Shown piece after piece: positions 2,790-58,596 of a stretch of DNA of 64,000 bases. This stretch comes from Isoetes taiwanensis (lineage: Eukaryota > Streptophyta > Lycopodiopsida > Isoetales > Isoetaceae): positions 5,461,012 through 5,525,011 of the forward strand of contig JAJEKV010000046.1 in the NCBI GenBank assembly GCA_021234155.1, read 5' to 3'. The notes beneath the pieces were generated by a model. That model made no database searches. It was not told the DNA's origin and saw only the letters and a list, made by a program, of their open reading frames with translations. Made by a program: the position numbers and the translations under genes. Each line of letters begins with the position of its first letter. The stretch's first letter is position 1.

Positions 2790-3374
2790 TCAAATAGAAC
2801 TCAAGCGACCTCATTAAGTATGCAATGATAACGACCAAGGCATATGCAAAGCCCACCACAGAGAACAAATGTGAAACTAAACGGAGCTAAGATTGCCATG
2901 CAAAAGAATTGTAATCTAAATGCATTTTTTCAAAAAAAAAAAAACTCAATTAATAGTCAAGCAAAGTAAACAATGTGGTAGAAAGCTCCATTTCTAAATT
3001 GCAAAATATTTCTGCTGTACCAATGGCAGCGTGCATCAATTTGCATGTAATTTGACATGAAACAACCATTTCGATTTACATGGTTAAGTGTTGTACCTGA
3101 TAGAACACGACCATGAACTTTAGCAAAGCTTCCATGGGTCTAAGCACAATATTGGGGGCAATTTTTGTCGCCATATAGGGTGTCTTTGGGGTGCTTTATG
3201 CCTTTTTCCTAATTTTAGGGTCCATTAACGAAGAAACGACATCGGCCTTAAAAAACTTCGAGCAAATTAAGGAGAGATCGGTAGCCCGCCAAGAATCTCT
3301 TCCCAAAATGTGGCTATCCCTCAAATTCCAGTTTGCATTTGTCAGATTATCTTTCCTTCTTTTTTTCAAAACAG

Positions 3375-6096
3375 ATGGATTTGGTTGAGCGGTATCTTTG
3401 CCAATTTCAAGCAAAGTTTGGGGATTCGGATCACGGAACTTATAGCAAAAGAGCTGGATTCGATCTTGAAGCTGATATACCAGAAATCTTGTTACAAGAA
3501 TTTGGGGCATCGAGTGTTGTGGTTGGAAAAGAATTTTCAATTTTAGGAGAGCGACCTTGAGTTCTTCCTTGTGATCATGTAGTTTCCCCAGAATTGCAAA
3601 GAAAGTCCTGGCGGCCATGCAAAGAAAGTCCCTGGCGGCCATAATCATTGTCCATGTATTCAAAGTGAAATGCAAATGTATCTCACCAAATATAGCTTGC
3701 GGGGAAAATAATGTACGCCAAAAAAGGATCTTGAGGAGGAAAAGAAGAGCGAGAAAGATTAGCACTTGAATCGATCCAGTCCTCACAGATTGGCCACTTC
3801 GAACCAAACAAAAGTTGGCAAAAGGTATTCGGATAATATTCATAATGTATGTAAGAATTTATTTCAAGATGATAGGGATGAAATCTTGGCAAAAACGGTC
3901 GGGGATTGCCGAAATTGGCATAATGGGACACAAGGAATTGTTTGCGATTAGGCAAGTTGTTGATAATGTGAAGAGCAGTCTTCAAACTAATAAGCTAAGA
4001 AGGAACGAGGATATGACACAAAGCGAGGTCATCTACTCTTGTAATGGTACATTAATAATGCTAGCAATAAGTCACGGAGTTGCAAAGACTTTAAACATAA
4101 AGAGAAGGACGTATCTTTGCTTTGGACAAGAGGAAAGCAAATTTGCAATTGGTGGGCCACGGTCCATGTTTAAGAGAAAGGATAGAAGTGACAAGCTCTC
4201 TTTTAAAGATCGGCGAAGATATATAGTTCTTGGGTTTGTAACACAAGAGTATCTCCCAACAAGAAACAAGTTGTGAAGCTTAGGAGAACCTCTGAAGGAG
4301 TCAAGAATTTCAAGCCATATAGGTTGCATCCCATCCACTTTTGGAAGAATCTCGGGGTTAGTGAACTTTGATATTAGTTTTGAAGTTCCTAGAATTGTCA
4401 ATTTACTTGCCACATTTGAAGATCGGACATATTTATTGAAGTCTAAATGTTATAAAAGTTTTTTGTGTTGGCTTGACGATGCGGGTTGTCTTCTACAAAA
4501 AAAGTTTGAGAAAGAAATCCCCGACATCAAAGTAGGTTTGAGAAGGTTTGAGTGCTTGAAACCTTTGTTTGTTAGGAGACTAAAAGATCGTGAAACTTGC
4601 ATGTGCATTTATCACATGAAGATGGTATTTGTGAGACAGGCATTGAATAGAATTAGAAGAGACATGAACACACATGGAACAAATTGTAAGTGCAAGTGTT
4701 CAATTTGTGGTGCTGGAGATCTTTGTGAAGTAAAGGAGAAGACTTTCAATAGTGTTAGTGAATTATGGAGGTCAACGGTATGTTCTAAGGCAGATGAGGA
4801 TCTTTGGCACAAAGCAAATTGTCTACAACTTGATTGCAGCTCATGTGGAATAAGAAAATTCAAAAGATGTCCACGGGAGAAGAGCGCTATTCGGACAATC
4901 GATTGGAAAAACTTTGAGAAGGTATGTACATTGTTTTCGCATTTGTATTCAATATTTGAAATAACATCTAACTTATTTAAACTAAATCAAAACTATGAAT
5001 CTGAGGCTAGCTGCAGTTAAAGAGACAATAAAAAGGAATGTGGGAAAGGATGGCTCCATCAAAGAGAAGACCAAGGATATCATGAGGCTAGTCTACAAAA
5101 CAACAACATTGAAAAGAATTCATGTCTCATGCTGATTACGTCACATGCGAGTTCATTCCACATAATTACACAAACTAGGTGGCAAGCGTAACAATTTAAA
5201 AATTGTCTTCAAACATTTCCAAAAGGTATCTTGTGGTTTTACGTTATAGATTTTGCCGAAATTTCTCCTTCAAAGTTCAACAAGAAATCCAAAGTATGCA
5301 TTGGCATAATGACCAATGTTCCATCCTAGTTCATATCACTTACGGACATGCCCAAGAATCGAAAATCCCACACATCAAGATTGGTGACATAAAATAGTGA
5401 AAAGAGACACATTTCTATATATCGGACGATAAGAAACATGACAGGTTTATTTGTCGGCATTGTTCGCAAAAAACCATCACGCGAGTTTTTGTTGAGCGAG
5501 GGAGTTAATTTGGCAAAACATGTGTTCAGTCTGATGGATGTGCCGCCGCAGTTCAAATCTTCTAGAGCTTTCTACTTCTTGGGAAGATTCTACAAGCTCA
5601 AGGGGATTAAGTTCTGTGGAACTTCTTTGCCACATCACATGGTAAAGGGGAGCATGATGGGGCCGGAGTCGTCATCAAAAGAATATTGACGAGTGAAATG
5701 CTTAAAAGGGACAGCACACCCTTAAGGGAATTAGAAGATGTTGTCAACTTTCTCAATTCCTATTTCAGAACAAAACAAACTTCAAAGGGATCAAACAAAC
5801 TTCAAAGGACCGCAACATACAAAGGTATTAGTTTTATTCCATAGTGTTGAGTCATTTAATATTGAAATTATTTCTTACACCCACAACCGTTTATTTTAGG
5901 TTCTTCTCGGCTTGTTAAGTTGGGTGATGTGAACGAGATTTGCCATATGAATGTGATACTTTAGCAGTACAAAAAGATTCACACAATTAGGCCTTACTGC
6001 CAAGACAAAGCCAACCGAAATGGCACATAGGCATCTATCATGCTTTTGCAGATTTTGTTGGAGAATTATGGTCTAAATGTAGACATGCATCTCGGC
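3375..6096 (+). pseudogene. Transposase-like gene, HGKG/DG family, decayed
   Basis: Fragments lie in order but in several frames. An N-terminal piece runs from ATG 3375 (MDLVERYLCQFQAKFG...) to 3560, followed by basic pieces at 3815-4276 and 4361-4920. The last contains a Cys/His cluster: TCMCIYHMK, then CKCKCSICGAGDLC about 30 residues on. A plausible intron starts at GTATGT 4921 and ends near CTGCAG about 5016. Further on are SDGCAA (5529 on), QFKS in another frame and HGKGEHDGAG (5638-5667). A second intron with GT...TTTTAG runs from about 5824 to 5898, followed by a tail containing LVKLGDVNEIC. The same motif order occurs at 55569-58596. I infer a DDE-like transposase whose conserved acids are the D of SDGC and the DG after HGKG; the superfamily name is unknown to me. 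Frameshifts near 5545 and 5620 and several stops make it non-functional as written. Confidence 0.65.
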
Positions 6097-6634
6097 TTGG
6101 AGATTATTCATTGTCAACCCCGTTCCTATGGTTTTGAGCGGGAATCACCCGGGCCCACCATGTACGCAGTATGAGGGGACAATCAATGAAAAGCGTAAAA
6201 ATGGTTGAAGTAGGTGATAACTTTGTTGTGAATGCAGAGGGAAGGAAATGATGAGAATGTGGATTTACGGGATAATCAAGTGCAATGAACCTAAACACAT
6301 TGTCCAAAGATGCATTTAAGGACTATTGGGGCTCTAAGTTCAACAAAGCAGGAGGTTGTCTTATCGGTAAATATTACAAGTTCATCCGGAGATGGTAAGT
6401 ATGAGTGTTAGACAATATGCCCGATGTAACTTTGCTATACACACCTTGTAGTTTGTGCAAAGGTTGAATTGCGGGCTGCACATGGTGAGAAGGGTGTGTT
6501 ACGCCTCTCGGGGCGATGCACATGAGCGGTTTATTGAGTATTTGCCTCCTCCCTCATCCCAGGGCACTTGCCGCTAGCCCCAAGATGAGAGGAGGATTGA
6601 TGCAGTGAAGTGAATCCATGCATAAATGTTAATA

Positions 6635-6712
6635 ATAACATTGTAAACTTGGGCATGTAATAGCCTTGTAAACTTGGGCATGTAACAGCCTTGTAAACTT
6701 GGGCATGTAACC
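6635..6712. repeat. About 26-bp tandem repeat, 3 copies
   Basis: The phrase TTGTAAACTTGGGCATGTAA occurs three times in succession, the second and third followed by related 6-7 base spacers. It lies between the converging genes of the element. Confidence 0.85.
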
Positions 6713-7056
6713 TGTTCATATGTTGTTTCAGACATTTTCTTCCATCAGTAGTAACAGAACCACATTGTAACCATTGGTTCAACCATTGTAACCATATTGT
6801 CAACAAAATTCAAAGTGTTTTAATATCAAGTGAATCTGGTTGTTCAAGTGTCTTTTTTCTATTGTTTTTCTTGTTGGGTGCCCGGATTGTCAACTGCCTG
6901 TATGGAGCAGCTGTATGAATTGAACAAGTGTTTAAGTAATGAAATTTTACAAGTAAACAAGTCCATTATTTCCTATCATCTTTGATCACTTGTATAATGT
7001 TTAAGTGTGTTTTGTGTTAATGTTTAAGTGTCTTCATTATTTCATGAAGTGAAATA

Positions 7057-7235
7057 ACTTGTGTTTTTCTATTGAGTTCAATAACTTGTGTTTTTTACTT
7101 GTGTTCAATAACTTGTATTATTTCGAGTTCAATAACTTCTGTTTGAGTTCAATAACTTGTATTATTTCGAGTTCAATAACTTGTGTTTGAGTTCAATAAC
7201 TTGTATTATTTCGTGTTTGTATTTGAGTTCAATAA
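7057..7235. repeat. Minisatellite based on GAGTTCAATAACTTGT
   Basis: About eight imperfect units of 20-27 bp, each containing GTTCAATAACTT followed by GTGTTT or GTATTATTTC. The array sits in the spacer where the two genes of the element converge and could contribute to transcript 3' ends, but no function is shown. Confidence 0.85.
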
Positions 7236-7701
7236 GTTGTGTGTTTCTATTGTCTTCTTTGTGTTTGTGTTTGTGTAATGTTTTAATTGCATTTTCAAAT
7301 TGTTCAATTCAATATTTGTCTGGTCTCGTGTTTCAAGTATTCCATATTCAAGTATTGCTAGCTCTCAAAGTTTCAATACATTTAACCTGTTGCAAACCAC
7401 ATTTTCATGAGGAAGACTGCAAACCACATATTCATGCAAAAAATGCTCACAAGTTTGACAACCATAAATATTTCATTCATTTGGAAGGCATTTACATTGT
7501 GAGATGTTCAAATTTGCTGCCTTTACAAAATAGGCAGTGCAAAAACATTGACATCGTGTCAATGGTTTGACATTCATCCTGTACAAAAAAAACATTGTAG
7601 TTCATGTCATTTGAAAAGGGATCTTCACTCTGCATAATAGTAACATGAAACTGAATTAACATACAAAGTTACAAACCTGGCAAGTTGCAAATATCAATAA
7701 G

Positions 7702-9520
7702 TTACAAACCTGGCAAGTGTAAAGAGATCTTCTTGTGTTTAACAAACTGTTCCAGTGTCATGGCTTCTTCATCACTGTCATCATCACGAGCATCAGCATC
7801 TTTGGCAGCAACAGATGGAATTGAAGATACTGCAACTTGGACAGGAACAGGTAGAGATGGAATTGGAGGTGCTTGAGCTGAAGGGGCTTCAACTAATGGT
7901 ATTACAACTTCGAGAGGAACATGAGGATATTCAAATGAAGGAGCCTGCACCATAGGAACATTGGCTTCCACCTGTGCTGAAAATGAAGGTGCTGGAACTA
8001 GAGGTGCTGAAGTTATAGGTGCTTCAAAGGTCTTTGGAACTAGAGGTGCCTGCGATTCTGAGGGCTTCGAAGGTCTTTGCGATTCTGGGGGCTTCAAAAG
8101 GTGCTTTGGAACTAGAGGAGTCTTTACATTTTCTGAGGGGCTTCAACGTGTCGCTGCGATTCTGAGGGCATCAACAATTGAAGGTTGCATAGCAAAGAAT
8201 TGTAGATCTTTGCTGGTTCAAACCACAAATTTGCAATCTGGCTAGAGTTGAAGGACTCAGCTTGGTTGCTTAAAGTATCATCTAACAACAGAAAATGATA
8301 ATTAGTATCTGCAATTTAGTAACACAACATTCTTTGAAATGAAATGTAGCACATGTATACACATTGGGGCATCATCTGTTGTAGGTTCTTCAAAGAATCC
8401 TTTGGTGTATTCTCCCCACATTTTTTCTTGGTAACCTCACGGCTGCTTACCTTTTGGTCCAGCCTTCTTTGTACTCTTTGGCTTATCGTAAGGTAAGTAA
8501 GTTAAAAATACAAACATAAATGACATTATTTTATAGCTAGTATATGCACTCACGAGAAAACTGCGGTATATGCTCACGTGCATTCCATTTCCTAGGTCTA
8601 CCTTTCTGAAATATTAGGGAGTTTCTTTTTGTCCACCTTCTTACGCAATTGGTAAGGATTCTATTACTATTGGTGCGGGTTCAGCCTCGAAAATCTGGAC
8701 TGTTTGATCCTTAGCGGTACAAGATTAGCATGTTCTTCTCCCTTCTTTTTCCTCTTGGCAGCAACTGCAAAAAACACAAGGCTGTAAGATTTATAAACTG
8801 CAATTAATAAAGACATTTATCAACATACTAACCTTTCTTGGGTGATGTCATAGACCTTGTTACACGTCTCTTGACCTTCACAGGTTCAGGTTCAGAGACT
8901 TGATCTTCCTCCATGTCTTCATCATCTTCTTCATGAGCAACAAGTTCTTCCTTACACTTGTTGGTAGGTAAAAGAATCCGGTAACCAAGCTCAACATATA
9001 ATCATGTGGGCACTTCACTCTTGCAAACTATGCAAAGAAGGTTCTCCATACAAACTTGGAAACAAAACAAGTGATACTTGTGTCCACATTTTAATTCAAC
9101 ACTAAATGTATAATCTGGATTGAATTCAAACCCACATACTTGACAACCAGAAACAAGATTAATCACTGTCAACTTACCAGAACTCGGTCTAATAATGCTT
9201 CTGCTAGCATAGTGCTCACGTAGGTGCTGCAAATGTTTAGCCTTCTCTTTGTATTCAGAAAAATCCAACATTTTGGCCTGCAAGGCATTGTTCAAACCTG
9301 ATAACTTCTCCTCCATTGCTTTACTGTTGTCAGCCTGTTTTTTCCTTTTCAAAATTGTGAGCAAAGACAAACCAAGATTAAATTCATCATCACAAAGCTT
9401 AGCAATACCAATATCCTCATCTGGAAAGTCTTCAACCATAAAAATTTTGAATATCACGTTTAACAATTTTAATACTCTTGGAAACAGAGGTTGCAGCCTC
9501 ATCAAAAACCTCGCAAGCAA
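7702..9520 (-). pseudogene. RING-like, acidic/proline-rich protein of transposon copy 1
   Basis: The 5' exon (9520 to 9002) encodes a coiled-coil-like stretch (KRKKQADNSKAMEEKLSGL...) and then a zinc-binding pattern: CQVCGFEF, about a dozen residues, CGHKYHLFCFQVC, LLCIVC. This resembles a RING finger (E3-ligase-type fold). The frame stops at TGA 9001-9003 but continues in the same frame through an acidic block (HEEDDEDMEEDQ) and a basic block (KVKRRVTRSM) to a clean donor (AAG|GTTAGT, about 8832), so this is a single nonsense change, possibly CGA to TGA. After an intron of about 67 bp come a Lys-rich exon and a Pro/Val/Ala-rich segment (8097-7702) ending in an acidic patch (DARDDDSDEE). The gene converges on 3375-6096 (+). 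The role in transposition is unknown; the homologue is at 59.5-64 kb. Confidence 0.6.
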
Positions 9521-10484
9521 GCCCTCATTTCTAATTTTCTCAATTTCAACCTCTTTGATTTCTTTACTGCTGAGAGACTTGATGGAATCTTCAAAGCTAA
9601 ATATTCAGCTTCTAAATAAGAGACACCCATATTAATATTCTCCAAAGTGTTTTATGCCTTTTGTTCCTATTTGAAATCTCAATTCTTTCAAAAGCAAAGG
9701 TAGCCCAATCCAACAAATACTTACTTGGGTTCGATTCGGCTCTTCTAGTGTCTTTGCCAAGCAAATGCAGGGCAAAATAGTTCGGCCTCATTGTTTTTCA
9801 AACCATCTTGATAAACCACGTTAATTAAATCCTTGAGGCGATGTTCAAACTCGGCCTAATTCTTGATACTTTTATCTTGTTGTCTTTCTTCACTTCCCAG
9901 TCCAAGCGTCAAGAAATCACCCACAGTGCAATCTGCCCAAGTTATAGTGCTTGGATCCTTGCCCTCAATTGCACAAGCCACGATATTCGACAAAGCTTCT
10001 TTGGGCTGTGTAAGCTTTCCTCATCACGCAAAGCAAGCATCATAAAAGTTAAATGCGATTCAAATTAAAAAGAAGAACAAAACAAATAAGTCTTGAATCT
10101 TGAATCTTTCTTAACTTCAAAGACAAACAGAAAAATCAGGAAGGATGACCACGGAGACATGGATTTTTACCTCTTGTATGGTAGGCGGCTTGCTTGGTTC
10201 TTTCTTGAGGCCGATCTTCAAATAAAACCTCTACGAGGGTTTGTACCAGTGTGCAACATCGAGGCGGGGCATGGCAATTATGATAAAGCACCGGTGATTC
10301 ATTGGCGACAAAAGATCATAGCTCGGGCCTCAAATCATAGCATGAAATCATAGGTCCCGCTTCACGCTGAAAATGTGCGCCAAAAGGATTTTAGGGTAAA
10401 GCAAGAACGCAATTGAAAAAAAAAAAAAAAAAAAAAAAAAAACTTCTTTAGGGGTCTTTGAAGGGTGCTTGCCATGCGCATTTT
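9521..10484 (-). other. Upstream part of the RING-like gene and TIR-proximal region
   Basis: No single frame stays open. The minus strand has short Lys/Arg-rich pieces that may be eroded 5' exons of the RING-like gene. A 25-base A-run (10417-10441) lies next to the right TIR. Confidence 0.35.
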
Positions 10485-10515
10485 TGCCCCCCAATATTGT
10501 GCTTAGACCCCCATG

Positions 10516-11587
10516 TCAAACCAATCCAATGATGTCACAATCATTGTTCTTTGATTTTGCTTTTGCTTTCTGGCTTATTGGAGCACCTGACTCAATTGAG
10601 TGCAGTCCACATAAAATGCTGTCAATAGTTAAATTCCTTCTCCTTCTAATGGACTCCACAGTGTAAGGACGAGGGACAACTACCTTCTTTATTCCCATAA
10701 ACTTTAGAGCTTCTTGAAATGACCTAAACAAAGCTCTATACCCTTGTCTACTAATGCCTGATGTATCACAATTAACTTGCACTTCGTCTGCATCAATCTT
10801 AGAAGATACTTCTTTTAAAACAATTTCTATGACGCTTTTTCGTAGGGAGAGATTGGTTGGATCATCCAACATGGACAAAATTTCTTCTTTCGTTGCAATA
10901 GTTTTGACAAGCTTCCCAATGTTGCTCCTCACTCCCTTCTTCTCTTTCTTGGTGTTAAGCACTCTCTTGATTGCATAAATCCTTCTCCTCGGATTCAATG
11001 ATTCAATTGGCTTTGTTTTCCTTTCCCTCTCTCTTGGACCTAAAGGTGTTTTATTTAAACGTTGCAATCTTTTCTCCAAAGTCTTCATCTTTCGGTCAGC
11101 TGCGTTGTACTTGCTTGCTAAATTTTTTAGTTCTCTATTAGTTTGATTCAAGATGAAATTTTTCAAGATAGAATCTTGCTGCATATGCAAGATTTCCTTC
11201 TCCAGCTTTTCTTTTTCAGATGCTAATTTCTTTTTCTCATCTGCCACTACGCTCATTTGCTGCTCTCTCTCTAAAATAATTCTTTGTGAATCTTGCAATC
11301 TACAACACAATTGTTGTATGTAATTCATCATGTTCTCACAATATTCTAACAAACCTGATTTTCCTTCACACACAAATTTTACAAGACTTGCCACTGAATT
11401 GAAATCTAGAAACTGACCTGTCATAGGATCTCTCGGATATATATCTCCCCTGTGCCCATATATCTGCATGCTTTGCACCCATGATTCTCAGAAGGTTCTC
11501 ATCCAATTTGGGCTTCGGTCCACCTTGTCTTCTTGACCAGCTTGGTGCATACTCCTTAGATGGTAAGGTGACCCGAAAATCTGCCAT
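10516..11587 (-). pseudogene. Coiled-coil protein of unknown function, frameshifted
   Basis: The likely start is ATG 11587 (MADFRVTLPSKEYAPSW); an in-frame ATG at 11698 gives a longer form. The first frame runs to 11366 and the second covers 11478 to 10516. They share sense across one shift near the GGGG run at about 11449-11453 (HADIWAQG then DIYPRDPMTGQF). Visible parts in order are a basic/Gly-Pro N-terminus, a Cys-containing middle, a long coiled coil (REQQMSVVADEKKKLASEKE...), a basic segment (GPRERERKTKP) and a helical C-terminal domain with SRQGYRALFRSF and ESIRRRRN. Total length is about 355 residues from the nearer ATG. The TGA stop is immediately outside the transposon TIR. The C-terminal domain looks transposon-associated, but I do not recognise the family. 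Indel error is a real alternative to pseudogenisation. Confidence 0.5.
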
Positions 11588-15423: not shown

Positions 15424-15697
15424 GCTTGTTGGGATCGTACCTCCGGGAGGTAATGGATCTGTGTTCTTCGGTTATGCCCCCTGTCCGGCATTAACCTCAC
15501 CATTGTACTTGTGATTATGTATATAAGCATGCGGTATGTCGGCATCCTTTTTGCTACTAAGGTTTTCCCAGAAACCCTTGGTGAGGGGTTTTTAATCCTG
15601 GTAGTAATACGCCTGCTGCTCTCTCTTTGTACTTGGGTCCCATAGGCCAGTTGGTCTCCGTGGACGATAAAATCATATTCTATTCTATTCTATTCTA
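15424..15697 (+). mobile_element. 5'-truncated LINE tail ending in TTCTA repeats
   Basis: This segment parallels the 3' end of the LINE at 21290-22711. Shared parts are GGGATCGTACCTCCGGGAGG against GGGGTCATACCTCCAGGAGG, a GGTTTTCCCAGAAACCCTTGG hairpin region followed by GGGGTTTTTAATCC, the GGGTCCCATAGGCCAGTTGG block, and a terminal (TTCTA)n. Only the 3' end inserted. Confidence 0.75.
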
Positions 15698-15842: not shown

Positions 15843-15971
15843 GGGAACTTAGACAAAAATGGGCTTACCTCATAATCTTATTCCTTTAACATCCATATTA
15901 TGGCTTAGGGAACTTAGACAAAAATGGGCTTACCTCATAATCTTATTCCTTTAACATCCATATTATGGCTT
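15843..15971. repeat. 65-bp tandem duplication beside a LINE
   Basis: GGGAACTTAGACAAAAATGG and the following bases are repeated perfectly with a 65-bp offset (15843 and 15908). The second copy ends exactly at the 5' edge of the LINE at 15972. The sequence ATTATGGCTTAGGGAA recurs beyond the LINE's 3' end. Confidence 0.9.
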
Positions 15972-18023
15972 TGGTTTTGGTGCACAATTCACAGCTGATG
16001 TCATGAGGCTTCATTATTCTGCTCGCTCTTCTATTCTCTTCCAAGGGGAACCCTCAGCATTCTTTCAGGTGGGTCGTGGCATCCGTCTGGGCTGCCCTTT
16101 AGCTCCATTGTTATTTACAGTTGTGGCTGAGGTTCTTGCAGAGGTCTTCTCTCTTGCCGCACAGGAGGGAATCTTGCATGGACTTCCTATGAACAATGGG
16201 TCGCAAGAGATCTGTAATCAATATGCGGATGACACTTTCCTTTTTCTGAGGGCAGATGAGCAAAATTTGCAGAATGCCATTTCCTTGTTGGATTCCTTTT
16301 CCCTAGCATCTGGTATTTTTGTGGGTTGGCAGAAGGCTTTGGACTCTCCAGTTCCACCATGTGTAGCTACCTTTCCATGGAAGATCCTTCCCCATGGTAA
16401 AGCAACCAAACTTCTCGGTATCCCTGTAGGTGTTCATATCTCATCAGGAGATGCGTGGGAGGCAGTGATTAAGGGCTTGGAAAAGCACCTTTTTTGGTGG
16501 TCCACAGCGAAGCTTTCCATGGCAGGACGAATTGTTGTGGCTAAGTCAGTTTTAAGCAGCACTCATGTGTATATGGCTTCGTTCATGTTGGCTCCACAGT
16601 CAAAGATACAACTTCTCATCAGGGTTGTCAGGAACTTCATTTGGGGGGGAACAGAGGAGGGTGCTGCTGTCAAAGTCAGTTGGGAAAAGTGCATGTTGCC
16701 AAAGCATTTTGGTGGCCTTGGAATGATTAATTTTCTTTTGCAGAGCAAGGTGATGATTTCTAAGTTCATTTGGAGAATTTTGAATAATGTGGATGAGTCC
16801 CCGGTTCCCCGCCTTGTTTATCGATCTTTGCAAATGTGCATTTCTTTTTTGGTCTCGGTCTCTTAGGCCACTTCTCCCCTGGGCTCTGTTCTATCCACTG
16901 ACGGCATACCCTAATGCATCCCCATTTCTTAGAGGATTGCTAGTTGCATGGGAGACTGTACAATCTCTGTTTCATTTTCACCATCTTGCGCACATCAGCA
17001 TGACTGCAAGTTGTTGGTGGATTCCATTGGATGGTGGTCCTCTGGTTGCTTCAGTCCATCCATTGACGCAGCGTCGATGGAGAGCAGCAGGCGTGCATAT
17101 GATATCCGATTAGTATAATAATCAAAGGCAGTTGCTGACATGGGAGGAGTTTAGAGCTAAGTTCCTCCTTTTAAGGTGGGATCGAGCTATTTGGCAGACG
17201 GTGTCTTCAATTCTTCCCCCAGTAGCACAAATGGATGATCCCCAGCCGTGGGTAGTTCATGAGCATGTCAAAGCAGATAAGTTGGTGAATTCCATGTACA
17301 AGGTCTTGCTTGATGCTGACGTCTTGCCTCCTTCGTCCAAGTGGCCTTTGGTCATTCCCAGGGATCGGCAGAAAGCAGTGTGGAAGTGGGTATGGGATAA
17401 ACTACTCCATCCCAAAGTATCTGTTTTATGGTGGCAAGTCACTCATCGTTATCTGCGCGTTAATATTCTGGTGCACAGATTTCGTCCAGAGGTGTCTGCA
17501 CTTTGTCCCTTATGTGCACAGAGGGACGAGACAATTGAGCATTGCTTCTTCCTATGTAGACATGTCAGACATGCTTGGTTGTGGCTTCAAGGCCTTTTTC
17601 ATTGCAATTTGAATAGCCAGCAGGTGTTATTAGCAGTTTATCCAAGTAGGTGGGATAATTTGGCAAAAAGGGCCTTTCATTTGGCTTCTGCATGGATCAT
17701 CTGGTCCATTTGGAAAAGAAGGAATCTTCTCATATTCAAAGGTCTTGCTTGTTCAGATGCACAGGTCCTTCTTGATGCCCAACAACGAATTGTCAAAGCA
17801 TTCAGGTGCTCATCAATTGCTAATGAGGTGAAGAGCCGTATTTGGGAGCACTATCTTCAGATTCATACTTACTTATGAGTTTTTGCTTGCTCTTCATATT
17901 GTTTAGATGTTGTATTTGAGTGGGGTGGTTTTGCTCTGGTGGACATTCTCTCCACTGAGTTATTAGTCCCCATTATACTCTGTAACTTTCTCTGGATAAT
18001 AAAGGCTCAAGTCCTTCAAAAAA
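15972..18023 (+). mobile_element. 5'-truncated L1-type LINE with TSD
   Basis: The insert is flanked by the 12-base duplication ATATTATGGCTT (15960-15971 and 18024-18035). It starts inside the reverse transcriptase and ends with an A-rich tail after a TACTCTGTAACTTTC...AATAAAGGCTC stretch that includes AATAAA. The structure is that of target-primed reverse transcription with 5' truncation. Confidence 0.85.
16003..17878 (+). pseudogene. LINE ORF2 remnant: reverse transcriptase and zf-RVT
   Basis: The first frame (16003-16866) gives the C-terminal half of an L1-type reverse transcriptase: GIRLGCPLAPLLF, then QYADDTFLF with the YADD catalytic box, then the thumb region with KLLGIPVG and LSMAGRIVVAKSVLSS. 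The frame shifts near 16800-16860 into 16787-17113 and again into 17132-17878. The last has WWQVTHRYLRVN and a zinc-binding stretch CPLCAQRDETIEHCFFLC, typical of the zf-RVT domain at the end of plant LINE ORF2. The endonuclease and palm N-terminus are missing through 5' truncation. It is not functional as written. Confidence 0.85.
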
Positions 18024-23493: not shown

Positions 23494-26400
23494 TTATCTT
23501 CTCATTTCTGGAAAAGATGCCAAAGCATTCACAAGGTTTTCTAATGCACTTACGATCTGTAACTTTGGCAACAACTCGCCCATCAGATAATCATCTGCCA
23601 TACATACCAAATATGCTTCTACAAACCAAGCATTATTCAACTCATAGTAGCACTTATAAGCATAGGTATCAACTATAAATGTATTTTCTGAGTTATATTT
23701 ACTAAAATGCTTATCGTAAACCTTTTCCAAGGTCTTAATAAATAAAGATGTCTTTCCATACTTACGAAGGGTAATAGAGGATAAAACACACTCTGTCCGT
23801 GACCAAATAAAAGCAAAGAATTTCATGACTGAATCTCGAAGAAATGTAGTTAGAGTTGATATGATACTTTCCAAATCTTGATCTGACCAAATAACCACAT
23901 CAAAAACTTTTAAACACGACTGAATAAAGTCAACAACTCGAGGATGAAGAAATATGTGCCTGGTTTTTGTCTCGATCGGCGTCACAGTCACAGAGTTGAT
24001 AGGCGTACGTCCTTTCTGGCACGAATAGAGAAGAACTCCATTAAGGCTTCTTGTGTCTCTAACTTGCTTCCATCTGGTCTATTATATTCGTCTAAATTAT
24101 TTGCATCATTTCCAACTTCCTCTATATCATTCCTGTCATCCCCATCTCATGATTTAACTCAACCCGATGCAAATCTTTAGGTTCTTGGAGGCCATCCGGA
24201 TGGTCCACCTCCTCAATGGGAGTATCTTCTAAAATTCTAGATTGATGAAGGCCATCCCCGTCAGTTTCTGACTGAAACCTAAAGAGTACAAAAATTAATT
24301 AGAATAATTCATTATTGAGTTCACGGACTTGAATCCGACACAAACTACCACTTTTAAGGACATGAAAAAAGAGAAAAGATGGGAGGATCTGACTCAAACC
24401 TAAGGAGTACAAAAATTTACGAAAAAAATTCATTAGTAAAAGTTCACAGACTTGAGTCCGACCCATCAACATCCCAAACCACCAATTTTGACATGGAAAA
24501 AGAAAAGATAGGAGGATCCCCAATCACCATGTTTTAAGGATATGAAAAAAGTAAAGATATATGAAAGAGAGAACATGGAAAAGGAGGAGAATGAGAGAAG
24601 ATATCCTTACAGTATTTGTTGCCTAGCAAGTAAGATTATTGCTGCCCTTGCATTGCTATCAAGTGGCTTTGGTAAAATGCCAACTTGATTAGTATCACCA
24701 AATTGGATGGCATCTTCAATGGCTTGCTTTTCCATAATATTTTCGTCATTGTTTAGAGGATCTTCATCTTCAATTTCGTTATGGCTCCCATTCTTTATAA
24801 AATTTACAACATCATATAAAAACTTATCGCAAAATATTCTCTCCGACTCCCTTGCTACGATAGAGATAGCTTTATAACCAGAGCAAAGAGTTGCTTGAGT
24901 CAGTGTACCATGAAGATACCATTCACATACCATAGTTTGTTTCTCACAAAAAGCGTTTATAAAATATTTTGCCACTTGAGACCTCAACGGCAGTAACTTC
25001 ACTGGCCCTCCATTCATACCAACATCTGCATAAAAGGGCTTTCAGAAACATACTTTTTGCTTCCCAATCAAGTTCCATTTTTTTGTCCATTGTAAAGCAC
25101 ACTTCCATAGAATCTTTTCCAAGATAATACTATTTAGATTGCAGATCACATACTCCTGGTTTTGAAATCATAACTATAAGAAGACAAGAGATACCACTAG
25201 AAGTCATATCTGATTTTGATATCACTTGATGTTCATAAATTGCATTCACAATTTGCTTATCACCTTCAATTGAATGAGCTGATGATATGGCAACACAACA
25301 TTGAGGACCCATTGGAGACAAGATGCATATAGTATACATGTTTAACAATGTCATATCTGAACAACTTCTCCAAAGCGCACAAAATCGTTGGTATCCCATA
25401 TTTCCTTGCTTTGACTGGAGTGCAAAAAAATAAACTTATTGGTGCTTTTGGAAGATCCTTACCATCTATGCCTTTGCAACCTATAGATAATTCAAAAAAC
25501 TGTACATCTTCAGGACTGAATGTTCGGGATTGCATTCCCAATTTTTTCCTAAGTGAATCCTTTACTGTAGCTAGCAACTCAACAGTCTTTGTATTCTTCT
25601 GCAATAATGTTTTAAGATACCATGATGACATCGAGATATATGTCTTGAGATCCTCTTCACTTATACTGTAAGACTTTGCATGCTCTTCATAATCACTATT
25701 CAAATCTCTCACTGTGTTTATATATTGGGCGATGCCTTCTTTTATTGCTCTCTTCCTCTTATAAGTAGTTGCCCAATCAGCCACATCAACTAGATTGTTT
25801 CTTCCCTTTGGTTTTTTTAATGACACCTCATCACTTAATATTTTTTCTGTTAGTAGGAGCATGTCATCACCAAGTCCCTGTGCCAGCCTCATAAAAGGAA
25901 TGTTGAAGAATGTAAGGCTTGGCTATTTAGGGGGATTACCTACCCAATCATTTAAATCCTTATCCATCCACATATCCCAAATTAGATTCCAATTCTTCCA
26001 TGCTTGATCAGGAAGGTTAATAAATTCATAGTGTTCACCCAGCCTTGGTTTGTTTGACTCATTCCTCTTTGCCGATTTATTTATAATAGTATATTTGGCT
26101 AATTCTTCAAATTCCTATATTGCATCCAATGAGATTTAACACAAATCTAACAACTCCAAAAGTTCAATTATAAAATGTAAATACGTATCTGCCAAGCAGT
26201 GCCTTTTCCAGAATTCTTGGGTGTCCTCTCTGGTCGTCCAATAGCAATCCACTGATTTCTAGCATGCTTCAATTGATCAACATATGGGCTTCATTAAAGA
26301 AAGAAGTAAGTCAGTAAGTCGTTAGCAAATAACAAATTACAAGAAATAGCAAAAACAAGAAATAGCACGATTATCTTTCATAATGTGAGACAATATTAAT

Positions 26401-30361: not shown

Positions 30362-30739
30362 GTGAGAGTTATATTATGAACTCAACAATGAGTAACAATG
30401 GTGGACAAGCAAAAGCTGCGTGTTTCTTTCTATTTCAATATGTAATCCTTTGCAGGATGGAGCAATAGTCGAGAACGTATTCGCTGCTATACTAATAGTC
30501 CCATGATTTCTGATATGAAAAATCTGAACTTTAGTTGCTGATTTAGTTGCTGATGTGAAAACCTTTGTTTCTATGCTAGGGAACCCACGGGCAGTCGAGG
30601 ATTTCTGGTGGGAAACTAGCAGGCGACAACGCCGCTCGGGGCACAGGTAGGGGGAATTCCGTCGATTAGCTTGTAGAGGCGATTCAAGCTGATTCAATGC
30701 AGATTCAAGCTCTCTCTTTTTTTTTTTTTTTTTTTTTTA

Positions 30740-32536
30740 TTGTGATTAAATGATATCCCAAGATGGCTCTTATTGTGGCAAAATGACATTCCATGATGTA
30801 AAGAATAGCTCTGATGATCCGCAAGTATAGGCTTGAGAATATTATTAAAATGCATGTTGCATAAGGATCTTTTATAGAACAAAGATGTTTAATGAATATC
30901 ATTATGGTTTCTAGACCTTATGGTTGAGAGCTTTGGTGTAAGAATAATGTTATATTCGCACAAGTTCAAAGGTTCAAATCTGTATAAGAACAACTAGTTC
31001 AAAAAGTTAAAATTTGTTCTTTATAAGCGGCCGATAACGGAGGTTGTTATCAGCCTGTTATCTTTGGCGTTATAGGGTTTCATTTTGCGGCCATGGCCCG
31101 GATTGGCGCCAATACAGATGTAGTGCCGCTTCCATCTCGCAAAACCGATGGCTCCATCCTTTTAGCCTGCTCGAAAAGGAAAGGTGTTGATTTTCTCAGA
31201 TGATTTAGAAGCATGGACTCATAGCAAGATATCATTCAGCCATTCTTCACTTTCTAGTAACAAAGACATGCTTTTAGAATTCGTCTGCAAAAGATATTAG
31301 AGAAGCCAACTTATGCCTTCATTTGATACATGAACACAAATGATGGAGCGTAGGGCGATGGCATGATCGATTTTGTGCATTTCTCATGGGATTTGTTCAA
31401 CCTCGGCAATGGAGCCGCAAATAATCACATGGAGCACCCGCCATATCAGGTTTTTCATGTTTGATATAAGAAGATTATTATTCTAAAATGCTCTCTTGGA
31501 GCAAATCAATAGACATCTATTATGAAAATATCTTTGAATAGTGACATTCTAGATTCTCGCCTTATCCATTCGAATGGCCAAAAACGCGGTTTTTTTATGT
31601 ATTCTAAACATATTGGGCGTGGATTAGCCATGTTGGAAATATTTTTAGAATATGTAAAACATGTTATTTTCCATAATCTGCATGTTTTTGTAAAACCATG
31701 TATGTGTGATCGGTTGGACTGGTGTTTGTTTTGAACAAAGATACTTTATGTACCAAGTAACATTGCAATAGTCAAACAAAATTTCATGAGAAATGCATTA
31801 TCATATGAAATGCATTGTCTAATCTGTAACATTTCTTAGACCCTTGTGGTCTTCCTCATTGATATTTTTATAATATCTTTTAGGTGAAGGGCGAAAAGCC
31901 ATGAAGTCTTACTGCTTACCTGTCATCCCTTGTCCGATTCTGAAGTTTATTGCTAACTTTGGCATGTTTGGGTGCAGTAACCAAGACTTCATCTCTTAGA
32001 AGTATTATTTCAAAATTGATGACTTGAAGATACGATTATAGATAATCACTCTTATACTTTGTGGGGGAATTACATATTGGTGAGATCCTTCCTGTTTGGT
32101 TTATACATATATAAAAGGCATTCGGTTGAAGTAAAACTTGGACACATGTTTAAACGATTAGCCTGCATAGTTTTAGGTTGATGCTTGAATGATAAGCCTG
32201 CATGGTTTGTGGGCTAATGATGTACTTGCGAAGAAATAGCTTAAAACATGTATTGACCTGTATGAACAGGCACAGTTCTGTAAAAACATACTAAAGGTCT
32301 TTATTAAATTTATTATTTTGGTCTTTTAATTCATAAAAGAGTCATTTTTGTTGTTCAAGGCTTATAAGATTAGGCTAGTTTTGTATGCCTTGATAAGTAT
32401 CATGGACCATGGATGTGGAGTACCATCTTGGATTAGCCTAGTCCATGTATGGCTGGATAAGTCTACCAAGGGATTGACCGAGGTAGATGGTCATGCTAGT
32501 ATGGCTTTTGTCTGAAGCTAGTTTGGGCGGGTTTTT
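30740..32536. repeat. 1.8-kb dispersed repeat, copy A
   Basis: This copy aligns with 35480-37270 in the same orientation. Sequence begins ATTGTGATTAAATGATATCC and ends at GCTAGTTTGGGCGGG. Copy A is preceded by about 22 T (30718-30738). Long stretches, for example about 31860-32500, are almost identical. No convincing coding frame. It may be a large retroposed or non-autonomous element; homopolymer T lies at one or both edges of both copies. Confidence 0.9.
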
Positions 32537-35190: not shown

Positions 35191-35479
35191 AGCCATTTAC
35201 GGACCGAGATACAGGAAATTTCAACTTGCTCTAAGTAGCAGGAATTGAGTACAACAAATATTCTTCAAAGCTTAAATGAGCCTATGAAGGTTTACAAGAA
35301 ATCGAAGCGCATATACAGAGGTATTTTTGTGCATTTTTCAATTATTCATATTTAAGTTAATTGTAATTATAGGGTAAGACATGACCCCTGCTGTAATAGT
35401 AGGGTCATGTCCACCCTATGATTACAGTATGACAAGCAGTGGTATGTCTTATCCTACGGTTGGAGGTAGGATTTTTTTT

Positions 35480-37269
35480 ATTGTGATTAAATGATATCCC
35501 AAGATGGCTCTTATTGTGGCAAAATGACATTCCATGATGTAAAGAATAGCTCTGATGATCCGCAAGTATAGGCTTGAGAACATTATTAAAATGCATGTTG
35601 CATAAGGATCTTTTATAGAACAAAGATGTCTAATGAATATCATTATGGTTTCTAGACCTTATGGTTGAGAGCTTTGGTGTAAGAATAATGTTATATTCGC
35701 ACAAGTTCAAAGGTTCAAATCTGTATAAGAACAACTAGTTCAAAAAGTTAAAATTTGTTCTTTATAAGCGGCTGATAACGGAGGTTGTTATCAGCCTGTT
35801 ATCTTTTGGCAGTATAGGGTTTCATTTTGCGGCCATGGCCTGGATTGCGGCCAATACAGATGTAGTGCCGCTTCCATCTGCAAACCGATGGCTCCATCCT
35901 TTTAGCCTGTTCGAAAAGGAAAGGTGTTGATTTTCTGTATGATTTAGAAGCATGGACTCATAGCAGTATATCATTCAGCCATTCTTCAGCTTCTAGTAAC
36001 AAAGACATGCTTTTAGAATTCGTCTGCAGCATATTAGAGAAGCCAACTTGCGTCTTCATTTGATACATGAACACAAATGATGGAGCAGACGATGGCATGA
36101 TCAGATTTTGTGCATTTCTCATGGGATTTGTTCAACCTCAGCAATGGAGCTGCAAATAATCACATGGAGCACCCGCCATATCAGGTTTTTCATGTTTGAT
36201 ATAAGAAGATTATTATTCTAAAATGCTCTCTTGGAGCAAATCAATAGACATCTATTATGAAAATATGCTGAATAGTGACATTCTAGATTCTGTCTTATCC
36301 ATTCTGGAATGGCCAAAAAACGGTTTTTTTATGTATTCTAAACATATTGGGCAGGATTAGCCATGTTGGAAATATTTTTAGAATATGTAAAGCATGTTAT
36401 TTTCCATAATCTGCATGTTTTTTGTAAAAAACCATGTATGTGTGATCAGGTTGGACTGGTGTTTGTTTTGAACAAAGATACTTTATGTACCTGTTAACAT
36501 TGCAATAGTCAAACAAAATTTCATGAGAAATGCATTATCATATGAAATGCATTGTCTAATCTGTAACATTTCTTAGACCCTTGTGGTCTTCCTCATTGAT
36601 ATTTTTATAATATCTTTTAGGTGAAGGGCGAAAAGCCATGAAGTCTTACTGCTTACCTGTCATCCCTTGTCCAGTTACCGAGTTTATTGCTAACTTTGGC
36701 ATGTTTGGGTGCAGGTAACCAAGACTTCATCTCTTAGAAGTATTATTTCAAAATTGATGACTTGAAGATACGATTATAGATAATCACTCTTATACTTTGT
36801 GGGGGAATTACATATTGGTGAGATCCTTCCTGTTTGGTTTATACATATATAAAAGGCATTCGGTTGAAGTAAAACTTGGACACATGTTTAAACGATTAGC
36901 CTGCATAGTTTTAGGTTGATGCTTGAATGATAAGCCTGCATGGTTTGTGGGCTAATGATGTACTTGCGAAGAAATAGCTTAAAACATGTATTGACCTGTA
37001 TGAACAGGCACAGTTCTGTAAAAACATACTAAAGGTCTTTATTAAATTTATTATTTTGGTCTTTTAATTCATAAAAGAGTCATTTTTGCTGTTCAAGGCT
37101 TATAAGATTAGGCTAGTTTTGTATGCCTTGATAAGTATCATGGACCATGGATGTGGAGTACCATCTTGGATTAGCCTAGTCCATGTATGGCTGGATAAGT
37201 CAACCAAGGGATTGACCGAGGTAGATGGTCATGCTAGTATGGCTTTTGTCTGAAGCTAGTTTGGGCGGG

Positions 37270-37300: not shown

Positions 37301-39582
37301 CTTGTGATTTGAGCAAGCAAATGAAGTTTGGAAGCACGTACAAGGTTCTTCTCCAGCTTACAGGAGTTCTTCCCCTATTTCTTATTTTTTTTCCTCTGTT
37401 TCCTCAAATGGAAGCAGACAAGCGTTCGTTCTGAGCTGATCTGGCATTAAAAGAAAAAAACAAATGCCTGAATCCACCTCCAAGAGTTATCCATTCCGAT
37501 GGCTCAGTATCTAGCAAAGAATAAGGCGGCGATCCTGGAAAAATAGAGGATTCTGGCAGAGCAGAAAAGGAAAACAGAGCAAAACAATCTGCCTAGCGAA
37601 TCATGCAGCTGAACAGCAAATAAAAAAAATGGCAGGAGGAGCTGTGGCTTCGAACTTGCTGCTCTGTGCACTTCTTATTTGGACCTAGAAGCTGCCACAG
37701 CCAGAGCTTAAAGAAGCCATAGCTCAAAGACTCCATAACGAAGCTTGAAGACGCCATAGCTGCATCGAAGCAAGAAAGAATCGAGGCTGTAGAAAAGAAA
37801 AATTACTTCTTGGCAGTGTTATGGCGGCGCCGCTTAAGCTTCTTATTAGATTACTAAAAAGGAACAACTCGTATAATTACCAGGAATTCTCCCTACCTGG
37901 GGTTTACGTATACAGGAATGGCAATCTACTTGCCATTCTTGTAATGTGGAAACACTTAGTAAGCATTCTGCCAGGAGTGAAAACAGTCGGAATGCTGGGT
38001 AAATGATCTGGAATGCTAGGTAAATGCTTCCGAATGCTGGTAAATAAGCCGGAATGCAGGGTAAAATGCTGCAATAGAAGCTCGAAGCTGCCGGAGTAGA
38101 AGCTCATCGCAGCAAATTTTTTTCTGTTAAGTTTCTTGATTTTTCTGTTAAGTTTCTTGATTTGAAACAGTGCCACGTCGCATGATACTAGTGGTGGACA
38201 CGGCACAATGTTTTTTACCATGTGATAACTTTTATATCACGTGCATTTTGGTTTTGGTAAGATGGAAGTGATCCATTTTTGAAATGTAACTCTTCTTTTC
38301 TATAATACCAACATGAAAGACAGAAAAAAATCGAAGTCCACATATGTATTTTTCTTGTTCATTAAGTTTACCCAATCCGTTTGGTATTGCGGGAGGGCCT
38401 TCTCGCAATGGTTAGGACTATGATTCTTGATGCGTATTGTATGAAAAAGGGTATATTTTGGCATGTTTGAGCAGCTTGTTATTATTTAGTGGTCACGTAT
38501 TTTGGGTTGTTATGGATGTTTTCTTTTTGCTATTGTTAGGAAGAAGGAAATGCGTGAGTCTAATTTCTAGGACGTGGATAAGTCTTCACGCCACTGTCTA
38601 TTTTTAGTGCAGAGCAGGGGCGAATTTTGAAGAGCATGGGCGACGGCTTGGGCTTCATTCTTTGTATCTGTGTTCAGACTGCCGGTTCTTGGAGCCGAAT
38701 AGGAAAGATGCAGCTCCGGAAGTCATGTATGCAATGCATTGGTAGGCATCAAAGGCCGAAATGTACAGAGTAGGGTGACCGATTTGAATCCAGATGAAAC
38801 AGAGCAAAGCTTCTTGGTTTTGAATAGGGATTGCAAAGCTTCTTGTGGTGAGGCAGGGATTGTGGAGAGTAGCGTAGATTGTTTAATAGGGCAGCCGTGG
38901 TTGTAGAGGAGGCAGCAAATACCTGAAATCGGAGGCGCCCAAGAAGATCTGATATTTTGAATGCCACCAGATTGAGATAGATTTGCCGAAATAGAGAGAT
39001 TTCCTTTCATTCAGTGGCTTGGAGTCACCGAATCCTATTCTTTTCTGATGCAGGGACAATTTTAGTAATGTTGAGTGGTTCTAAAATCGGCCTTGAACAT
39101 CCCACCAAGCTCCAGACGCTGGCTATGGGAGTGATTATGTTTTGTCAAAATTCTTTAAAACTACTCTGGTTATGATTGATTGCTGGAGGCAGAGGATTCA
39201 GCGATCCAGCAGCAGCCTTGTTGAACAGAGGCTTCATTCTGACTATTGGTTATTGGGTGTTCGAAGAATAGGAATTGTGTATTGTAATCTGTTGTATTAG
39301 AATGTGAATATCTGTTGTAATTGAGTTTACCCAATTTCTGTTGTAACTATCTGAGTTATTGTGAAACAGCAATGTAAATCTGAGAGAGCAATATGAATAT
39401 AGTTTTTGTCCACTGCAATTCCGCTTCACATAACGCCAATGGTCATGTGTTTTAATTCTGCACCTTTGAAATTTGTATGGGTTGCGGCCTGCAAAAAAAC
39501 AGAGGGCCCTTCATCTGACATAAAAGGAGGAATATTCCTCCCATGAAGGCCCAATTGAAAAATGAAAACATCCCATAAAGAT
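37271..39582. other. Intergenic upstream of the lipase
   Basis: No supported gene. 37960-38080 carries about five degenerate GGAATGCTGGGTAAATG units. TTTTTCTGTTAAGTTTCTTGA is repeated at about 38119-38162. 38325-38362 matches sequence before the lipase derivative at 29130, so the lipase locus homology starts here. Confidence 0.5.
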
Positions 39583-39606
39583 AGTGGGGACGGAAGAGTT
39601 TTATTA

Positions 39607-40415
39607 ATGGCGCTTCCCTGCTTGGATCGCTGCTCTGTGTTGCAGGGAAGGCCCTTTCTGCTCCACATTCAGCATGGAATTTCATCACACATTTGGATCA
39701 ACAAGAAGCTTTGGCCTTCCAACAAATCGTATCCCCTTTGGTGGACATGTCTGCAAATGCCTACACACACCCACGTCTTCAAAACATCTCCGGCTGGAGC
39801 CTGGCCACTAAACTCCCTCCGCTTGCTCCCCCTCATGGCGGAGCCCATGCTCTTGTATATCTTCATGATTTTAGTGAGCGAATGGTTGTCGCGTTTCGAG
39901 GCACCGCTAACTTTACTTCAGAAGACGGAATGGCTGATCTTTGCGCAGATCAGAACATGTTCGGTCAATTATTTCCAGGTATTCCCTCTGCACCCTCTAG
40001 CATATGCTCCATGTTTGCCAATGAAACCCTAGATTATTATTCCCAGGCAGTGAAATATACAGAGCAGGCTTTGGCAGCCTATCCTTGCAGATCTTTGTTG
40101 CTCACAGGTCATAGTTTGGGTGCTGGACTGGCCCTTTTAGTTTGTGCGAATTTTTCTGAGAAATTAGTACTCCCTGTTGTTGGATTCGGAGCCCCTGGTT
40201 TATCAGAGTTATTTAAAAGATGGAATTTGGAACTTAAGGCTGCTAAAGAGCATATGGTCTTTGTAATAGGGGATGAATGGGATGTAGTCATGAGATATGC
40301 TTGGAACAGTCAGGGCACAAGCTTAGCGAATGTATCATCTACATGCTATGAGATAGTAAGAAAATCATCATTTTTAGGGAGTTTCAAATCTTTGATGCTG
40401 CCAAAAGATTGGTAG
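39607..40415 (+). pseudogene. Class-3-lipase-like gene with frameshifted signal peptide
   Basis: The main frame encodes a lipase_3-like alpha/beta hydrolase: WNFITHLDQQEALAFQQIV, VVAFRGTAN (the oxyanion-type RGT motif), TGHSLGAGLALLV with the nucleophile elbow GHSLG (about 40107-40121, catalytic Ser), VGFGAPG, and FVIGDEWDVV as the likely acid region. It ends LMLPKDW at 40415. The expected C-terminal catalytic His is not evident. Upstream the same frame reads LLGSLLCVAGKALSA, a secretion signal core, but the only suitable ATG (39607) is out of frame. The derivative at 29238 has four more bases there and reads through as MALILLLGSLLCVVGKAL. Hence the gene is frameshifted or contains a 4-base assembly error. 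If the error is artefactual, the product would be a secreted lipase of about 265 residues. Confidence 0.7.
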
Positions 40416-54473: not shown

Positions 54474-55120
54474 CCAAATTATAAAAAGAAATGTTCAATT
54501 GGATATTCTCATGGGTAATAACTTGGTTTATATGTATGCCAAATGTGCATCGTAAGAAGAGGCTCATGAAATATTTGTGTGATTCTTTTTATTAGAATGT
54601 TTTGTGGTAATGCAAGAGGCAGCCATAGAACCCGACTCTACCACATTTCTTAATGCATTGGAAGCATGTGCATGCATAAGAGCTTTACAAAGAGGGAGGT
54701 TTATTCATGATCAGAGTAGTAGCTATGGGTTTGAAAGTGATGTTGCTTGGAGGTTTGAAAGCGGTGTTTCTTGGGGAGTATATATGCCAAGTGCGAAAGC
54801 ATGAATGGGGCAGATAAGGTTTTCAAAAAGTTGTAGAATTGATGTGGCATCATGGAACACAACAATTTCGGGATATGCTGACCATGCTAACACTTCGAGC
54901 CATTTTCAATGGCAAATCAATGTGCATGCATATTATTGAAATTGGGTTGATAAGGATGTTATTGTGTAGAATACACTGATAGATATGTATGAAAAAGCGT
55001 GGCAAGGTGAGATCTGTAGCAGAAATATTTGCAAATGCAAATTGTAAAAATTTTGTGCCATAGACAGTCATGATTGCTGCATATGCTCAAAATGGCTAGT
55101 TGAAAGATGCACTTTAGGGT
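54474..55120 (+). pseudogene. PPR-protein pseudogene, 3' part
   Basis: Continues the frame interrupted at 45.83 kb: DQIIKRNVQLDILMGNNLVY, then MYAKCAS and EEAHEIF; IEPDSTTFLNALEACACIRA with LQRGRFIHDQ at about 54620-54720; WNTTISGY about 54860; and NTLIDMY about 54970. These are P-, L- and S-type PPR repeat signatures. Several stops and shifts. Function would have been organellar RNA processing or editing; now inactive. Confidence 0.7.
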
Positions 55121-55568
55121 AAAAGCATGCTAGGGTGTCATACATTAGTTCTAAATTCATGTACTATTTTGCACTAGAAAACCCGTTTTTTATGTAATTT
55201 TGAATGTATGGTAGGAGGCCACGTGCTTGTCGTTATATATTTAAAAAAGGAATATATTTGATTGTTTGTCATCATGACATGAAGTGGCCGGCGGTTGGTT
55301 GTTGAAAAATTTGGGCACAATCCATTGGATTCCCTCCGATCCAAGCAAATTCCCTCCAATCCATCCGAAGCAAGCCAATTCCCTCCAATCTACGGCCTAA
55401 GAATCTAAAACAAAGAAAAGAATTTCAAATTCTTGCCGGATCTTTGCATGCATATCAGTTTTTAGTAGTAGTAGGAACACGGCACAAGAAAATCAAAGTA
55501 TGAAATTAATTACTCGGTGATGTCCAAAATGAGGACGGTGATACGAAATTGACAAAGGGAAGCGTAAA
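55121..55568. other. Spacer between PPR pseudogene and transposon copy 2
   Basis: No gene. TCCCTCCRATCCA is repeated three times near 55330-55390. The left TIR of transposon copy 2 should lie here but was not identified; copy 1's TIR sequence is not found. Confidence 0.4.
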
Positions 55569-58500: not shown

Positions 58501-58596
58501 AAGCATAAGGTGAAGGGTGCTTCTTTATGCATTGTCTACCATGTGCATGAGATGCTACTGGGAAGTTTGCCTGAAATGCTACATGATCTGGAGTAG
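55569..58596 (+). pseudogene. Transposase-like gene, HGKG/DG family, copy 2
   Basis: ATG 55569 (MVEQDTLNDIFE) is followed by an in-frame TGA and then RMADHIRVLSPKNQEKSEK. 55831-56212 encodes a basic segment ending DTKQLVIQFWLNNTKVSPKY and a donor-like CAG|GTATTT; an intron of about 220 bp ends TTTATGCAG near 56431. 56800-57010 gives, across frames, RKLKERNTCCCVKHEQ and CEVC, parallel to copy 1's Cys/His cluster. 57418-57846 carries LYIYDGQNHDTHFVQHAFKF, HLKWLKENGG and VWSDGC. HGKGEHDGECA (57780-57812) is in a shifted frame. 58231-58596 is an intact-looking C-terminal piece (MGDMFASFAAPENEENVPYY) ending at a TAG. I infer a DDE-type transposase with candidate acids in the DGQNHD, SDGC and HDG motifs. 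Not functional as written. Confidence 0.65.

Follow-up and report, generated by a model that had tools for sequence, protein, structure and literature searches.

In this study, a stretch of 64,000 nucleotides from the lycophyte Isoetes taiwanensis (assembly GCA_021234155.1, contig JAJEKV010000046.1, positions 5,461,012 to 5,525,011 of the forward strand; hereafter, the window) was found to carry a complete DNA transposon, here called family 1, whose forward gene encodes a predicted transposase and whose converging reverse gene encodes a coiled-coil protein with a RING finger (Table 1). A second locus near the right end of the window is, as judged from its sequence, a diverged sister of family 1 with the same domain order, and is referred to as family 2. 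The existence and the anatomy of the family-1 element can be regarded as practically certain.

The ends of the element were defined by searching its terminal DNA against the assembly of 1,658,258,908 bases (1.66 Gb) in 1,110 contigs, in which more than 30 copies with 83-92% identity started and stopped abruptly at the same points. An earlier reading of the window from its letters alone (the sequence-only reading) had placed a two-gene mobile element at 3133-10515; the element stands, and its exact bounds shift to those given in Table 1, between two CCAT flanks. The same reading had proposed terminal inverted repeats (TIRs) of about 30 bp, and these are present in the copies as repeats of 26/27 bp, GGGTCTAAGCACAATATTGGGGG(G)CAA at both ends. 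In the whole genome, the TIR pattern gave 52 + 65 = 117 matches, against 0 for the control pattern, and adjacent matches formed 21 inward-facing pairs with a spacing of 6.5-32 kb and no outward-facing pair. At one locus (G000:C1007:15449537-15481531, 32 kb), several partial family-1 5' regions lie inside a single TIR pair, perhaps as nested or tandem copies.

Fourteen copies, including that of the window, had both ends readable; these complete copies are 6.6-8.7 kb long, and 13 of them are flanked by an exact 4-bp target-site duplication (TSD), which gives the fixed length that the sequence-only reading had named as a check. The duplicated sequences are varied (CCAT in the window, then TGGT, TATA, TGCA, AACA, GTTA, TTCT, AAGA, GTTA, TTTT, ACTA, ACAT, and TATA), and a given pair of 4-mers agrees by chance in only about 1/256 of cases. 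Further, the host site of one insertion (L019) is the tail repeat of a long interspersed nuclear element (LINE), and joining its flanks minus one TGGT gives an uninterrupted repeat, that is, an empty-site paralogue. The LINE-tail repeats (TCTATTCTA) at 15621 and 22619 of the window are related copies that double as this empty-site counterpart. The family-1 copies differ by 2-8% from their majority, and therefore the burst was not very recent; both genes are fully open in none of the copies examined.

The forward gene consists of four exons encoding about 900 aa. As the window copy is frameshifted, the open exons were located in a 15-copy majority comparison, used solely for exon finding, in which four forward open reading frames (ORFs) are joined by GT-AG introns legible in the sequence, including the boundary of exon 1. 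Exon 1 gave weak matches to HTH_8 and HTH_30, and exon 3 contains the motifs VSVIDFAENY ((I)DFAEN from 5249), SDGC (from 5530), and HGKGEHDG (5638-5661), so that the order of a Cys cluster, SDGC, and HGKGEHDG described in the sequence-only reading holds for family 1. In 14 sequences representing several subfamilies, two D residues and a third acidic residue (E/D) are invariant (14/14) and constant in spacing: the second D follows the first by 92-94 residues, and E and D stand at +39 and +41 from the second D. These data point to a catalytic core of the DDE/D type, D94D39E or D94D41D; the invariant E and D both lie in HGKGEHDG, which is compatible with DDD or DDE alike. The dN/dS (nonsynonymous to synonymous substitution) ratio of exon 3 was 0.04-0.06 between subfamilies for the pairs with computable dS, and therefore the transposase protein has been maintained by strong purifying selection.

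No transposase model of Pfam or NCBIfam matched, a profile search of PDB sequences returned nothing, and the viral and prokaryotic collections yielded pattern matches only, with no true relative. Three of 19 members gave a weak Pfam match, under the cut-off, to the IFT80 beta-propeller (best E 4e-5). We discarded it, as the stretch involved is the conserved core of the transposase, with its parts arranged as in a DDE enzyme. Presumably, a similar FFATSHGKGxxDG motif also occurs in animal proteins.

The reverse gene converges on the transposase gene, and its main ORF encodes, in order, an N-terminal domain, a coiled coil, an RING-H2 finger, an acidic hinge, and a basic stretch, followed by smaller Pro-rich exons; the coiled coil, RING-like finger, and acidic hinge had all been recognized in the sequence-only reading. 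Intact frames of 402 and 445 aa are present in copies. The majority reading of the finger has all eight zinc ligands and the complete cross-brace spacing of an RING-H2 domain, and among solved structures those of RING E3 ligases come closest (RLIM, E 0.02). The linkage between the two genes was evaluated for 95 scored RING-gene matches and 141 scored transposase matches (out of 9,239 candidates), with a limit of 20 kb. Thirty-nine of the 95 RING-gene matches lay within this distance of a transposase match, and all 39 were convergent, against 0.3 expected by chance; 18 of these 39 have only 36-50% identity to the query. The other 56 had no listed transposase nearby, but as just 141 of the 9,239 transposase candidates were scored, they have not been shown to be unlinked. 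Directly abutting the element, a 323-aa reverse-strand ORF (10516-11487) with a coiled coil and no strong Pfam match may belong to the host or to an older element that received the insertion.

Family 2 reproduces this arrangement. In the genome, some 35 copies of its 5' region take their start at window positions 55116-55118, where they read GGGTAAAAGCATGCTAGGGTG, with the GGGT start in common with family 1, and the terminus has 3,235 + 3,187 matches genome-wide (about 6,400; control 0). Its transposase region matches all four family-1 exons collinearly, in blocks at 55843-56181, 56807-57130, 57258-57848, and 58231-58572 (E 4e-7, 4e-12, 2e-16, and 6e-9, respectively). The reverse genes of the two families have no pairwise similarity, and family 2 matches RING models independently; the last Cys of the finger is changed in the window copy. 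These data uphold the earlier proposal that the two loci belong to one family with the same order. Family 2 is the more abundant of the two; at a first look, the two transposase queries gave 9,239 and 4,225 candidates in the genome, most of them unscored.

The reverse strand of family 2 also encodes an NIF/FCP1-like phosphatase domain, which the sequence-only reading had overlooked. In the window copy, motif I of this domain reads FEIQGVL, and thus is without the DxDx(T/V) nucleophile and the catalytic Asp. Where NIF matches are linked to a family-2 transposase, 67 of 68 are convergent, mostly at a distance of 1.7-2.0 kb, and the linkage holds even where NIF identity is only 38-50%. Linked RING matches are convergent in 60 of 63 cases, so that linkage of the RING gene to the transposase in other copies is found in both families, and all 55 linked pairs of RING and NIF domains share one strand, with a distance of about 3.1 kb between the two domains. 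No NIF linkage was found among the 31 family-1 RING matches listed. As the NIF domain is linked to the family-2 transposase and not to the family-1 RING, it is a feature of family 2. At one locus (C1025:14771510-14781488), two copies of the family-2 terminus enclose RING, NIF, and transposase, which have the expected order and strands.

The window holds a second NIF-like domain on the reverse strand at 23494-24078 (PF03031, E 8e-10), which is 28% identical over 92 aa to that at 59.5 kb. No transposase was found alongside it, and it is possibly the remnant of a third element; two neighbouring reverse-strand ORFs (24607-25041 and 25266-25922) without a convincing Pfam match possibly belong to the same fossil gene.

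Table 1. Features of the two transposon loci in the window.
Feature	Position	Strand	Evidence
Left target-site duplication CCAT	3132-3135		identical to 10511-10514
Complete transposon, family 1 (7,375 bp)	3136-10510		sharp copy ends; alignment with 14 full copies
5' TIR, GGGTCTAAGCACAATATTGGGGGCAA	3136-3161	+	ends of copies; genome-wide pattern search
Transposase exon 1, decayed in the window; Cys-rich cluster and helix-turn-helix-like segment	3375-4356	+	362-aa ORF in 15-copy majority
Transposase exon 2; F..LKP..V..L..RETCMCIYH and Cys-rich CKCKCSIC	4485-4921	+	majority ORF; homologue 56807-57130
Transposase exon 3, predicted catalytic core	5017-5824	+	majority ORF; conserved motifs; dN/dS
Transposase exon 4, C-terminal domain	5900-6597	+	majority ORF; homologue 58231-58572
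Converging accessory gene; main ORF 8831-10046, more exons to about 7705, Pro-rich tail	7705-10046	-	425-aa ORF in majority
RING-H2 finger C-x2-C-x15-C-x-H-x2-H-x2-C-x9-C-x2-C (majority reading)	9020-9148	-	zf-RING_2/zf-RING_11 weak; zinc ligands complete
3' TIR	10484-10510	-	ends of copies
Right target-site duplication CCAT	10511-10514		pairs with left CCAT
Family-2 element 5' end, GGGTAAAAGCATGCTAGGGTG	55117-55137	+	copy starts; genome matches
Family-2 transposase, four collinear blocks	55843-58572	+	similarity to all four family-1 exons
Family-2 NIF/FCP1-like phosphatase domain	59514-60113	-	Pfam PF03031, E 5e-4, just under cut-off
Family-2 acidic repeat hinge VEETKVEETKV...	61436-61744	-	sequence
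Family-2 RING finger CTYC..CRHPYCLLC..C	63095-63208	-	zf-RING_2, E 0.0012, below Pfam cut-off
Family-2 coiled-coil-like segment upstream of RING	63325-63687	-	sequence

Based on this evidence, we consider, with a probability of roughly 0.8, the two families to form a clade of cut-and-paste DNA transposons carrying a transposase and a convergent coiled-coil RING partner; its likeliest affiliation, held with less confidence, is with Sola. Concerning its working, recognition of the 27-bp GGGT... inverted repeats is probably the task of the N-terminal helix-turn-helix and zinc-binding segments, and the transposase, from what is known of DDE transposases, would pair the two TIRs. The putative RNase H-like core (D94D39E or D94D41D) would excise the element, and insertion at cuts staggered by 4 bp would generate the 4-bp duplication. 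The coiled-coil RING protein, inherited with the transposase, would probably act as a ubiquitin-ligase-type regulator or a partner of the transpososome; a role in regulating transposase stability or as a transpososome partner is judged most likely because neither family has given up the RING in spite of their long divergence. RAG1 is a known precedent of an RING attached to a transposase-derived enzyme. The NIF-like domain may serve as a binding module, as suggested by the window copy, the one copy read for this point, which is without the catalytic aspartates.

Concerning the affiliation, Sola transposons have 4-bp TSDs, a DDD transposase, a length of 2-9 kb, and TIRs of 11-1124 bp, and are present in Physcomitrella (PMC10741241, PMC9033089). 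Family 1 has in common with them the 4-bp TSD, TIRs and length within these ranges, and a seed-free plant host, as with Sola1 of Physcomitrella; its transposase is of the DDD/E type, the third residue being ambiguous between DDD and DDE. This fit in TSD, size, and TIR range had gone unnoticed in the sequence-only reading, in which Sola was not among the superfamilies weighed. Differences also exist: the convergent RING and the NIF-like domain of family 2 are unmentioned in the published Sola accounts examined, and the described Sola2 elements have AT-rich duplications (AWWT), whereas family 1 also has GC-containing ones (CCAT, TGGT, TGCA). On the 4-bp TSD, size, and TIRs, we lean, by somewhat more than even odds, towards a Sola-like lineage.

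The element belongs to a clade of TIR transposons, as read from its sequence. Apart from Sola and AcademX, each superfamily considered is at odds with it in signature or TSD. In the sequence-only reading, it could not be assigned to hAT, MULE, CACTA, Harbinger, or Helitron; signatures of the hAT, MuDR, and CACTA kind are absent. A C/DxxH motif between the second D and the last E marks hAT, MuDR, Kolobok, P, and Dada, and is absent in 14 of 14 transposase sequences. MuDR resembles family 1 in having two-gene elements and a TSD range (4-10 bp) that includes 4; however, family 1 is without C/DxxH, has short TIRs, and shows no Pfam MULE match. Kolobok and piggyBac likewise have a 4-bp TSD, and accessory genes of various kinds are found in Kolobok lineages as well, but their TTAA target is not that of family 1 (CCAT, TGGT, TATA, TGCA, AACA, GTTA, etc.), and the C/DxxH of Kolobok is lacking. 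The CMCT group (EnSpm, Mirage, Chapaev, Transib, and Plavaka) is characterized by C(2)C and H(3-4)H between the second D and the last E and by TSDs of 2-5 bp; the CACTA, Mirage, Chapaev, and Transib elements resemble family 1 in TSD range and in the occurrence of two-gene elements, but their termini are CA, against GGG in family 1, and CxxC and HxxxH are absent from the transposase sequences between the second D and E. The retroviral-type integrase core of Ginger1 and Ginger2 was not seen either, as no Pfam integrase match was obtained.

Several points weigh against our interpretation. The excision itself is unseen, and the cut-and-paste mode is taken from general knowledge of DDE enzymes. The AlphaFold2 model of the core with 14 relatives (mean predicted local distance difference test score 45, predicted template modelling score 0.32) is too poor to confirm an RNase H fold; its secondary-structure order is compatible with such a core, but a model of this quality cannot count as evidence. 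Synonymous sites are saturated in most of the pairs compared. The family-1 RING matches Pfam RING models weakly (E 0.007-0.03, below cut-offs), and a search of the window and the next 1.6 kb (to window-equivalent 65600) did not reveal the 3' end or 3' TIR of the second element. Finally, the comparison of family 1 with Sola was made on published descriptions.

Among the alternatives, the reverse gene with its RING and NIF might be a host-captured passenger outside the transposition machinery. The confinement of the observed NIF linkage to family 2 and the lack of the catalytic Asp in motif I of the window copy speak for this view, whereas both families have a RING gene that converges on the transposase, and the family-1 linkage persists at 36-50% identity; we find it unlikely. 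A similar or slightly lower standing is given to a new superfamily, namely a DDE/D lineage with the same cut-and-paste chemistry, related to Sola by no more than the 4-bp TSD. The silence of Pfam, NCBIfam, and PDB sequences, the lack of relatives in the viral and prokaryotic collections scanned, and motifs that fit none of the superfamilies with testable signatures are in line with it, but every quantitative feature lies inside the published Sola range. To our knowledge, Sola has no Pfam model, and therefore the missing Pfam match says little. A bolder form is doubtful, at about one chance in a few: an undescribed lycophyte superfamily with an obligatory convergent RING, accompanied in one branch by NIF, in which ubiquitin signalling and dephosphorylation or binding like that on the C-terminal domain (CTD) of a polymerase would take part in controlling transposition.

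An Academ transposon of the AcademX type is improbable. Its TSD of 3-4 bp (PMC10045372) is the only feature that fits family 1; Academ lineages encode a nuclease or a helicase (the latter in AcademH), while no nuclease, helicase, or integrase domain was found in the family-1 main ORFs, and the accessory gene here is an RING/coiled-coil gene, with NIF added in family 2. The idea of two ordinary host genes, or a segmental duplication, spread by some other mechanism and bearing incidental inverted repeats, for which the order conserved over large divergence and the long open frames at some loci could be cited, can be dismissed in view of the exact 4-bp TSDs of varied sequence in 13 of 14 copies, the empty-site paralogue, and the dispersed, sharp-ended copies on many contigs.

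Elsewhere in the window, a LINE-like reverse transcriptase ORF (15955-17878, +) was observed, together with direct repeats at 30731-32276 and 35472-37014 (spacing about 4.74 kb, 97-100% identical), which possibly represent the paired long terminal repeats of a young retroelement or else a duplication of recent date. A class-3-lipase-like ORF with a GHSLGAGLA motif (39559-40415, +) is probably a host gene.

In the literature searched, no description was found of plant transposons that combine a transposase with a convergent RING, with or without a phosphatase-like domain; nor did it turn up any relevant account of NIF domains in DNA transposons, although such a negative carries little weight. 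The elements are very numerous in the host genome. Since Pfam and NCBIfam have no model for them, they would probably remain unclassified, or be listed as genes, in an automatic annotation. The conserved convergent RING and the linked NIF-like domain suggest that ubiquitin- and phosphatase-type functions encoded by the elements themselves take part in the transposon life cycle, which is a testable proposal.

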